DNA of 47,387 nt, taken from Candidatus Amesbacteria bacterium RIFCSPLOWO2_01_FULL_48_25 (GTDB taxonomy: Bacteria > Patescibacteriota > Microgenomatia > CAZETR01 > Amesbacteraceae). Under the pieces are notes generated by a model, which saw nothing but the letters and a program-made list of their open reading frames with translations, ran no database searches and was not told the DNA's origin. Positions within the stretch are counted from its first letter, which is position 1, and every line of letters begins with the position of its first letter. Position numbers and translations under genes: made by a program. The stretch covers positions 1-47,387 of the forward strand of contig MEXN01000007.1 of assembly GCA_001773695.1 (NCBI GenBank), in the 5' to 3' direction. Below, piece by piece: positions 3,135 through 38,847 of this stretch.

Positions 3135-3977
3135 GTGGACAAGTATAAATATCCATTTGGGGCGGTGTGGCTGTCTCACTCGAGCATGGGGGATTTTGCC
3201 AAATGTCCCCGACTATATTATTTGCGAAACATGTACAAGGAGTCAAAATCCGGAAAGAAGATCCAGGTGGTTAGCCCGTATTTAACTTTGGGAATTGCTG
3301 TCCACGATACTTTGGAGGTGATCAGATATTTACCGCGGGAATCGCGGTTTGATAAACCGTTGACACACATTTTTGAAGAAATCTGGGAAGGAAGCAGCGG
3401 CCAAAGGGGTGGATTTAAATCCAATGATCAAGAAAAAGAGTTCCGGGGGCGAGGACTGGCAATGGTAAAAAGAGTTCAGGATAACCCGGGGCCGATTGCA
3501 TCTTTGTCTACCATTATTAAGGACCGGGGAGAGATGGTAGCTAATATGTGGCTCTCTGAGGCGGACGGGCTAATTTTATGCGGCAACGTAGATTGGGTGG
3601 AAGTACTGCCGGATGGCAGCCTGCACATAATTGATTTTAAGACCGGTAAAAACGAGGAGGATGCGGCTTCGCTGCAACTGCAAATTTATTTGCTGCTGGC
3701 TAAAAATAATAATAAGCGACCGGTAACTAGACTTAGCTATTGGTACTTGGAGCGGGATGATGTGCCGAGAGAAGTTAATATTCCTGATTTGGCTGGCGTC
3801 GTGGAACAGCTGGTGGAAAAGGGCCGGAAAATTAAAGCGGCCAGATTATCCGAGGCTATGGAGTGTGCTAAAGGGGGATGCAAATACTGTCTGGAATATG
3901 AACAAGTTGTAAAGGGTGAAACCGAGCAAGTGGGATATGACCCAAAACGGGAAAAAATGTTGTATCTTGTATTATAA
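3135..3977 (+). CDS. PD-(D/E)XK nuclease, RecB/Cas4-like, with probable Fe-S cluster cysteines
   Basis: A 280-residue single-domain nuclease from the RecB/AddB-C-terminal/Cas4 group. Visible features in order: S-x-S-x-x-x-F-x-x-C24-P entry motif; H57 in GIAVHDTL; D153 in GNVDWVEV; D167-F-K169 in HIIDFKTGK; Q-x-x-x-Y helix (LQLQIY, about 181-185); and a C-terminal cysteine set C244, C249, C252. With C24 this makes four cysteines, as in the iron-sulphur staple of AddB and Cas4. No cas genes or repeats are nearby, so a CRISPR role is not supported and general repair is more likely. It starts with GTG at 3135; the nearest ATG is out of frame. Confidence 0.8.
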   Translation: MDKYKYPFGAVWLSHSSMGDFAKCPRLYYLRNMYKESKSGKKIQVVSPYLTLGIAVHDTLEVIRYLPRESRFDKPLTHIFEEIWEGSSGQRGGFKSNDQEKEFRGRGLAMVKRVQDNPGPIASLSTIIKDRGEMVANMWLSEADGLILCGNVDWVEVLPDGSLHIIDFKTGKNEEDAASLQLQIYLLLAKNNNKRPVTRLSYWYLERDDVPREVNIPDLAGVVEQLVEKGRKIKAARLSEAMECAKGGCKYCLEYEQVVKGETEQVGYDPKREKMLYLVL

Positions 3978-3984
3978 TTAGGTC

Positions 3985-4182
3985 ATGGGAATCGATTGGA
4001 GCAACTTGTTTAAAAGATACAAGAATTTGTGGGTGGCTCTGAAGGACGATGAGAAAACGGTCATTGCCAGCGGCAGGACGGCCAAGCTGACGTGGGACAA
4101 AGCCAGAAAAAAAGGTGCTCTGAATCCGATTCTCGCCCATATCCCCGGTAAATTGATCTCGTACGTTGGTGGACAAAGATGA
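3985..4182 (+). CDS. DUF5678-like small protein, first gene of a two-gene module (copy 1)
   Basis: A 65-residue protein of the type LFKRYKNLWVALKDD, then TVIASGRTAK, a helix, then PILAHIP and a C-terminal YVGG. This pattern is typical of DUF5678-like proteins, whose function is unknown. It starts 8 bp after the nuclease gene, and its stop overlaps the start of the aspartic protease gene by 4 nt (ATGA). The same order occurs again at 38271-38847 with a clearly related but diverged pair. Possible roles are an inhibitor or substrate adaptor of the protease, which is inference only. Confidence 0.7.
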   Translation: MGIDWSNLFKRYKNLWVALKDDEKTVIASGRTAKLTWDKARKKGALNPILAHIPGKLISYVGGQR

Positions 4183-4580
4183 AGTTTTTTTACAAACGTT
4201 ATGCTCCCGGAGTGATTCGTCCAGTGATACCTATAGAGTTACGGTCTGGTGGAAAGCGGCTGAGATATGAAGCCTTGATAGACTCCGGAGCAGACGAGTG
4301 TATTTTGGATGCACAGTTGGCTCAGATATTGGGTATAAATTACCGCCGGGGGATTAAAAGGATGGTGGGAGGGATTACCGGTGCGGAACAAGTTTATTAT
4401 GCTTGTCCGGTAGTAATTGGAGCGGGCGAATGGTCTTTTGAAACCTTGGTTGGCTTCATGCCAAACATGCCAGATTTTGGGTACGGGGTTTTGGGTCAAA
4501 AGGGATTTTTTGAAAACTTTGTAGTCAAGTTTGATTACACGAAGCTGGAAATCCAACTAAGCGCAAGAGTAAAAAATTAA
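4179..4580 (+). CDS. Retropepsin-like aspartic protease (copy 1)
   Basis: A 133-residue single-lobe aspartyl protease of the retropepsin/clan AA type. The catalytic motif is L-I-D35-S-G-A-D. Downstream comes the flap region (MVGGITGAEQVYYACPVVIG) and the second hydrophobic-G motif (YGVLGQKGFFENFVVKFD). Proteins of this size carry one catalytic aspartate and must pair to form an active site. There is no signal peptide, so it is probably cytoplasmic. It is translationally coupled to the DUF5678-like gene just upstream. A homologous pair is at 38271-38847. Target proteins are unknown. Confidence 0.75.
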   Translation: MKFFYKRYAPGVIRPVIPIELRSGGKRLRYEALIDSGADECILDAQLAQILGINYRRGIKRMVGGITGAEQVYYACPVVIGAGEWSFETLVGFMPNMPDFGYGVLGQKGFFENFVVKFDYTKLEIQLSARVKN

Positions 4581-4587
4581 TCTACTT

Positions 4588-5097
4588 ATGACTTATAGAA
4601 CTCCATTGATCCTGGTAACTGTGGTGGTGGTTTTTGCAGGCTATCAGCAGGTGGACCGGGGTCAAGTTCTGTCAAAAACCATAGAAGTAACTCCTACAGT
4701 TGTTCCTTCACCTACGGTCACACCGACCAACACACCAATTCCAACATCTACACCCCGGCCGACGCGAGTGCCTACCCCAACACCCAAACCCCAGCCTAAA
4801 TTCACGTCTGAAGAAATTTATAACTTTACCAACCAGTACGGCGGGCAGTACGGAGTGGACCCAAATGTCATCCGACACGTGGCTTTATGCGAGTCGGGAT
4901 TTAAGCCGGGGGCGAGAAATTATATTTATGCCGGGTTGTTCCAATACGACGTGGCCACTTGGAAAACTTTCCGCAAAAAGATGGGCGAAAATTCTGATAC
5001 TGACTTGAGATACAATGCTAAAGAAGCGGTAAAAACAGCTGCTTTTACTTTATCTTTGGGTTACTCTCGCTTATGGCCAAATTGTTATCCGAAATAA
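4588..5097 (+). CDS. Secreted lytic-transglycosylase-like protein
   Basis: A 169-residue protein. A hydrophobic N-terminus (residues 5-20) should act as signal or membrane anchor. A Pro/Thr-rich linker (about 33-70) spans the cell wall side, and a C-terminal SLT/lysozyme-like domain follows from about residue 72. The domain shows the order YGVDPNVIRHVALCESGF, in which the glutamate after LC is the expected catalytic acid, then an AGLFQYDVATW segment matching the G-L-x-Q core, and a C-terminal helix ending in YSRLWPNCY. Two cysteines may form a disulphide. The likely role is peptidoglycan cleavage at the cell surface. It follows the aspartic protease gene by 7 bp, with a possible shared transcript. 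Confidence 0.75.
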   Translation: MTYRTPLILVTVVVVFAGYQQVDRGQVLSKTIEVTPTVVPSPTVTPTNTPIPTSTPRPTRVPTPTPKPQPKFTSEEIYNFTNQYGGQYGVDPNVIRHVALCESGFKPGARNYIYAGLFQYDVATWKTFRKKMGENSDTDLRYNAKEAVKTAAFTLSLGYSRLWPNCYPK

Positions 5098-38036: not shown

Positions 38037-38177
38037 ATGGCGAGTTTTTATTGCGTGAAGTGTAGAACAAAAAGAGAAGACCCCAACGCCCAGGCTGTAA
38101 CTATGAAAAACGGCAAGAAAGCAATGAAGGGCAAATGTCCGGTGTGCGGGACTGGGATGTACAAGATCGGAGGATAA
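38037..38177 (+). CDS. DUF5679 zinc-ribbon protein
   Basis: A 46-residue protein, FYCVKCRTKRED, then AVTMKNGKKAMKGKCPVCGTGMYKIG. Four cysteines (CxxC twice) should bind zinc. This matches DUF5679, small ribbons common in CPR and some Chloroflexi, function unknown. A strong ribosome site GAGGAGGTGA lies 7 bp before the ATG. It is too short for usual ORF limits but well supported. Confidence 0.85.
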   Translation: MASFYCVKCRTKREDPNAQAVTMKNGKKAMKGKCPVCGTGMYKIGG

Positions 38178-38270: not shown

Positions 38271-38492
38271 ATGAAAACTAATGCATATCTCAAACTCCAG
38301 AAAAAATTCGGCGGCAAGTGGGTGGCGACTGACAAAACCGGTGGCCGAGTTTTCAGCCAGGCCAAAGGCATAAAAGGTCTTTTTATCAATCTGAAAAAAC
38401 TCGGGGTTCCTCCTCAAAAAACTACCATTGGTTACATTGAAAAATACGGCCAACTTAGTGCCTATATTTCCTTATCAGTACAAAAGGATTGA
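38271..38492 (+). CDS. DUF5678-like small protein, first gene of a two-gene module (copy 2)
   Basis: ATG 38271 gives 73 residues: YLKLQKKFGGKWVATDKTG, then RVFSQAKGIKGLFINLKKLG, then TTIGYIEKYGQLSAY. The layout (K-x-x-W-V-A, a short strand, helix, then P/I-x-K-Y) parallels the gene at 3985-4182. The longer frame from 38211 begins in the terminator and adds a hydrophobic head, so I reject it. Its 3' end overlaps the protease gene by 35 bp. Confidence 0.65.
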   Translation: MKTNAYLKLQKKFGGKWVATDKTGGRVFSQAKGIKGLFINLKKLGVPPQKTTIGYIEKYGQLSAYISLSVQKD

Positions 38493-38847
38493 TTTCGGGA
38501 GAGTTTTTAATCCTCTGGTTCTTTTGCCGGTAAAAGCTTCGTGGGGGTGGCAGAATCTATGGTTTCTGGTTGACAGCGGCGCAGATACAACGACCATTCC
38601 CTTGGCGCTAGCAAAAAATCTAGGTATACAAGTTCAAAATAACCCGACGAAATTGCATGGAATAGGCTCTCAAGCCGTGGATGCTTTCCCAGGAAAGATA
38701 ATGTTGAAAATCGGCGAGTCTGAGTTTACGGCCCGAAGTTATTTTGTCGAAGCCGAAAAGTCAACTCTTTTGCTCGGGAGAATGGATATTTTTGATAGGT
38801 TTTCGGTTTTGTTTGATAAGACAGGCCAAAGAGTAACGTTTTCTTGA
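38458..38847 (+). CDS. Retropepsin-like aspartic protease (copy 2)
   Basis: GTG 38458 gives a 129-residue protein; a TTG ten codons upstream is also open. The catalytic motif is F-L-V-D39-S-G-A-D-T-T-T-I-P. The flap is HGIGSQAVDAFPGKIML and the second motif is STLLLGRMDIFDRFSVLFD. The order and size match the copy at 4179-4580, with low identity outside the motifs. Again a single catalytic aspartate means a dimer. Its partner gene is upstream and overlapping. Confidence 0.75.
   Translation: MPIFPYQYKRIDFGRVFNPLVLLPVKASWGWQNLWFLVDSGADTTTIPLALAKNLGIQVQNNPTKLHGIGSQAVDAFPGKIMLKIGESEFTARSYFVEAEKSTLLLGRMDIFDRFSVLFDKTGQRVTFS

Follow-up and report, generated by a model that had tools for sequence, protein, structure and literature searches.

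A small gene of the DUF5678 family and, directly behind it, a gene for a single-lobe retropepsin form a near-obligate two-gene module, which we find in two diverged copies in the 47,387-nucleotide stretch of DNA analysed here (the window) and in other genomes of the CPR bacteria and the Omnitrophota, both little-known groups. The reading we prefer, whose chances we put just short of even, is that this is a self-contained module, either toxin-antitoxin (TA)-like or with a prosegment supplied in trans, in which DUF5678 is the dedicated inhibitor or partner of an active, dimeric retropepsin.

An earlier note on this DNA had described a small DUF5678-like gene that overlaps the start of an aspartic protease gene, and we confirm both genes and their overlap. 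The small protein of copy 1 matches PF18929 at 36.8 bits, against a Pfam cut-off of 23.2, the protease matches PF13650 at 26.8 bits (cut-off 24.3), and the two frames share an ATGA stop/start (Table 1). Translation of the two genes is probably coupled. Copy 1 lies within a co-directional run of genes for a nuclease, DUF5678, the retropepsin and an SLT transglycosylase. Most relatives do not keep the PD-(D/E)XK nuclease next to the module, and when we used it to look for a clean empty site for copy 1 in relatives we found none, as the neighbours of the nuclease differ there. The SLT transglycosylase also lies downstream of the module in genome G012, and it is the only neighbour that copy 1 has in common with that genome.

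The same note had placed a diverged second pair 34 kb away, and this pair is real by both Pfam and family profiles. Its DUF5678-like protein scores 12.6 bits with PF18929, under the cut-off. With a family profile from which it had been excluded, searched against the whole window, it reaches 26.8 bits (E 1.9e-7), and the next-best chance match scores only 8.4 bits. The accompanying retropepsin is above the cut-offs of PF13650, PF13975 and RVP, and the catalytic motif reads D-S-G-A in both copies. The start of the small gene is best read as the ATG at 38274; that of the protease is probably the GTG at 38458 rather than the TTG at 38428, where the frame opens. Shortly upstream of this pair is a DUF5679 zinc-ribbon gene (38037-38177, 62.9 bits). 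PF13650 matches no other protein in the 939-kb genome than the proteases of copies 1 and 2. A third copy, on contig C5 (locus L002; G000:C5:164878-165015), has an intact DUF5678 frame followed by a protease remnant that has lost its N-terminal half, including the catalytic Asp.

Table 1. Features of the two module copies and their flanking genes, with positions in the window.
Feature	Positions	Strand	Size, basis or remark
PD-(D/E)XK (Cas4-like) nuclease gene	3135..3977	+	7 nt upstream of copy 1; PF12705 77.8 bits
DUF5678 gene, copy 1 (proposed partner/inhibitor)	3985..4182	+	65 aa; ORF
ATGA stop/start overlap linking the copy-1 DUF5678 and retropepsin genes	4179..4182	+	sequence
Single-lobe retropepsin gene, copy 1	4179..4580	+	133 aa; ORF; PF13650 above cut-off
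Catalytic D35-S36-G37, copy 1	4281..4289	+	D35 and G37 invariant across 85 relatives
Retropepsin-fold hydrophobic-hydrophobic-Gly motif (VLG, G106), copy 1	4488..4496	+	G106 invariant across 85 relatives
SLT lytic transglycosylase gene	4588..5097	+	7 nt downstream of copy 1; PF01464 29 bits
DUF5678-like gene, copy 2	38274..38492	+	72 aa; leave-one-out family profile E 1.9e-7
Retropepsin gene, copy 2	38458..38847	+	PF13975 32.9 bits, PF13650 31.8 bits; leave-one-out profile 99 bits
Catalytic D-S-G, copy 2	38572..38580	+	sequence and alignment

Among 187 genomes of the same class as the source, PF18929 matches occur in 71 and PF13650 matches in 103; DUF5678 is patchily present, with up to 8 matches per genome. 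Among the matches listed for this sample, 70 DUF5678 matches have a same-strand PF13650 match within 400 nt downstream, where chance alone would give about 0.07 for an assumed genome size of 1 Mb. Reading the DNA of the class sample directly, we found a D-[ST]-G retropepsin frame immediately downstream at 76 of 91 DUF5678 loci, and in a phylum-wide sample an intact retropepsin directly follows at 19 of 25. We also searched from the protease, using a retropepsin alignment built from paired loci, which places other protease families outside its reach; here a DUF5678-like gene, in some cases a weak match of about 7-16 bits, lies directly upstream at 17/17 loci in another class and at 28/31 in the Omnitrophota. 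One of the three Omnitrophota exceptions sits at a contig end. The other two are of a separate type, behind a bioA-type aminotransferase-like gene (loci L230 and L253, with YVDSGAA-type retropepsins and no DUF5678). The earlier note had argued from conserved order and coupling at two loci to a functional unit, and these frequencies, which show that the pairing is not rare elsewhere, support that argument strongly: in both CPR bacteria and Omnitrophota the pairing is close to obligate, its order is fixed, the genes often overlap and the two diverge together. For the role of the unit the note had offered a protease with an inhibitor, adaptor or zymogen-type partner, or a toxin-antitoxin-like pair; these are inferences, among which the orphan counts given below favour the inhibitor and TA readings.

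The pair might also be two unrelated genes that merely share an operon by descent, and the downstream neighbour that copy 1 shares with G012 does imply that some copies were inherited in place. However, module copies occupy varied gene surroundings, the pair is kept across different neighbourhoods, subfamilies and phyla, and about 70 pairs stand against the 0.07 expected by chance, so that we consider this explanation highly improbable.

Proteases that appeared to be unpaired in the source's own class (n=49) prove to be a mixed group. A sub-threshold DUF5678 accompanies 15 of them, and one (L191) is truncated at its start. Most of the remainder belong to different retropepsin families that have no DUF5678 partner, among them soluble 'MGITKV..LVDSGATYTV' retropepsins and a family with a hydrophobic, membrane-like N-terminal segment; at six loci (L190, L196, L197, L201, L204 and L207) such an N-terminus goes with the motif LLDSGAV or similar. 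The DUF5678 partnership is therefore a property of one retropepsin subfamily and not of all. On the DUF5678 side, three loci (L104, G122:C33; L109, G147:C2; L150, G434:C2) encode DUF5678-like proteins of another, WVAIYNEEVVA-like type without a protease, two of them in tandem at L104.

We examined the anatomy of the module in 95 pairs from 69 genomes. Median lengths are 66 aa for the DUF5678 protein and 133 aa for the retropepsin, and the commonest register between the two genes, found in 32 of the 95 pairs, is the -3 overlap that copy 1 also has. Across 85 retropepsin relatives D35, G37 and G106 are invariant and S36 is nearly so, and judged by these residues the protease looks catalytically intact. 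The family profile matches the EIAV and FIV proteases and Ddi1 chains in the PDB. A predicted model of one module retropepsin (L071) superimposes on Rickettsia APRc (5c9f) with Z 14.3 and an rmsd of 2.6 over 120 residues at 12% identity, and on the HIV/SIV (lentiviral) proteases with Z about 12.5.

The DUF5678 protein is basic (median net charge +6). The AF2 model of copy 1 predicts a helix-strand-strand-helix-strand order (mean pLDDT 83) with a less ordered C-terminal end; this loosely structured stretch follows a nearly invariant proline. Foldseek returned no significant match in the PDB, and no DNA-binding fold could be recognised; the best VIA match, a deaminase-type chain at Z 3.7, we did not take as a relative. 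We also considered whether an aromatic-hydrophobic C-terminal tail might plug the protease cleft. The strict pattern occurs in only 47 of the 95 pairs, and the plug remains an idea. When the L071 pair was modelled as an in-frame read-through fusion, with the stop read as glycine, the domains were confident, the pTM was only 0.68 and no trustworthy interface emerged. Nor did mutual information, computed for 90 pairs, yield a convincing map of contacts.

The two proteins have a long common history. Pairwise distances among 90 DUF5678 proteins track those among their proteases (Mantel r 0.77, against at most 0.16 in 2000 shuffles). Because loci that descend as a whole add to this correlation, it shows lasting joint inheritance, not contact. 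Purifying selection acts strongly on both genes, with dN/dS of about 0.1-0.2 in the comparisons with the least saturated dS. These observations would also suit a substrate-recognition adaptor or sensor, in which DUF5678 passes targets or signals to the retropepsin and the pair acts as a regulated processing protease with no addiction involved: near-obligate pairing and co-divergence fit any dedicated partner, and long-term strong purifying selection, with matching copies in related genera, suggests a lasting job. An adaptor would have little reason to outlast its protease, yet several intact DUF5678 genes stand beside a dead one, and we think this role rather unlikely.

This decay is lopsided. 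Counted by hand, some 14 DUF5678 genes are intact but have no intact protease; 7 of these, the third copy of the source genome among them, adjoin recognisable protease remnants. In the opposite direction, only 1-3 module-type proteases are without DUF5678. The asymmetry has a p of about 0.002, a value that rests on small counts, on classes sorted by hand and on searches whose sensitivity differs between the two families. Preferential survival of DUF5678 favours an inhibitor or TA reading, in which a harmful protease is lost and its restrainer kept. It is not expected if DUF5678 instead helps the retropepsin to fold, or is a subunit without which the enzyme can neither dimerise nor act. The upstream, overlapping position of its gene would permit co-translational assembly of such an activator, and partnerless proteases are almost absent; related retropepsin families nevertheless stand alone in the same genomes, and we judge this role improbable.

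Type II TA modules are likewise made up of two small genes that overlap, occur in multiple diverged copies and leave orphan upstream genes. The DUF5678-retropepsin module shares with them the fixed order of two small adjacent or overlapping genes, and the multi-copy, patchy occurrence of DUF5678 fits TA-like behaviour. It may differ in two respects: type II antitoxins usually carry a DNA-binding fold of the kind that we could not recognise in DUF5678, and, unlike classic TA modules, the module has no plasmid, phage or viral relatives that we could find. Alignments of two DUF5678 subfamilies, searched against viral contigs, and several queries searched against plasmids and phages gave no relatives at that sensitivity. 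Plasmid matches to the retropepsin frame of L260 (L260:1968-2639) are cysteine desulfurase and not retropepsin, since that frame continues into a NifS-like stretch.

The earlier note knew of no described system of this kind. For the literature searched, this holds: no paper describes a DUF5678-retropepsin pair, none joins a retropepsin with toxin-antitoxin systems, a retropepsin toxin paired with DUF5678 is absent, DUF5678 itself has no known function and occurs in one paper, where it is mentioned once, and PDC-M08, a candidate discussed below, was not found by name. Rickettsia APRc is not known to have a DUF5678 partner. It is a single-lobe enzyme with the same fold as the module retropepsin, as represented by the L071 model (PMC4140852). 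RimB, of the RimABK system, is another retropepsin-like protease from bacteria, and it is encoded alongside partners that modulate the system (PMC11957791); these are RimA, a phosphodiesterase, and RimK, a glutamate ligase, where the module has DUF5678.

The claim does not hold for the PADLOC database, which lists PDC-M08, a two-gene phage defence candidate with homologous parts. Like the module, PDC-M08 combines a small A protein with a retropepsin B protein. The window retropepsin matches the PDC-M08B profile, for which no curated cut-off is shown, with E 5e-5, as do 51/85 relatives at E <= 0.01. The DUF5678 protein of the window has no match to the PDC-M08A profile at E <= 1. This profile does match small proteins upstream of divergent retropepsins at L162 and L163, and also the small protein of L260, and these PDC-M08A-like proteins are distantly homologous to DUF5678 (hhalign probability 89%; DUF5678 E 0.0015 for L260). 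A fourth divergent gene of this type, at L263, has no retropepsin near it, as the other three do. A second two-gene candidate, PDC-M52, has a retropepsin homologue as its B part, matched by 56/85 relatives at E <= 0.01; its A part (86 positions) has no convincing match in the source's own class. The window module differs from PDC-M08 in that the A model does not match its DUF5678 directly and in that we see no clear defence embedding here: among 119 neighbour proteins there is no recurrent defence family, and Cas4-like nucleases occur in at most 3. It thus forms its own branch within a kind of system that has been catalogued, not explained.

These relationships raise the possibility of an anti-phage module of PDC-M08 type, in which phage activity would free the protease and the infected cell would be killed or disabled. 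Such a role is compatible with the inhibitor reading, to which it adds a purpose. The matches to PDC-M08B in the window and in more than half of the relatives point towards it, as do the distant DUF5678 homologues beside retropepsins at L162, L163 and L260. On the other hand, PDC-M08 is itself an entry in a list of candidates, and PADLOC-type candidates are found by 'guilt by embedding' and are mostly unvalidated (PMC12988326); with the window DUF5678 lacking a direct PDC-M08A match and the module's neighbours lacking clear defence clustering, we treat a defensive purpose as a minority prospect.

In the model that we prefer, the DUF5678 protein, basic, about 65 aa long and folded as a small alpha-beta-beta-alpha-beta domain, would be translated first, and translation would continue across the stop/start overlap into the retropepsin. 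DUF5678 would then bind the protease and keep it inactive, either as a dedicated inhibitor or as a separately encoded prosegment. Were DUF5678 lost or degraded in response to some trigger, the retropepsin would be active as a homodimer and might cleave proteins of the cell or of an invader, with toxic effect. The putative benefit could be phage defence, stress control or self-maintenance of the module. More specifically, the pair may be a retropepsin TA system or a zymogen in trans, in which an HIV-protease-like enzyme is silenced by a separate DUF5678 inhibitor, widespread in CPR bacteria and Omnitrophota, as a mechanistically undescribed branch of a larger group to which PDC-M08 belongs; to this fuller statement we give tentative credence, leaning slightly against it.

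Few roles are known for soluble bacterial retropepsins, and none for DUF5678, and a near-obligate partner makes both testable together. Should DUF5678 indeed inhibit its partner, this would be a case of a retropepsin with a natural, proteinaceous inhibitor, the pair would be a protease-type TA or defence module in bacteria that are hard to culture, and the candidate defence entry PDC-M08 would gain a mechanism.
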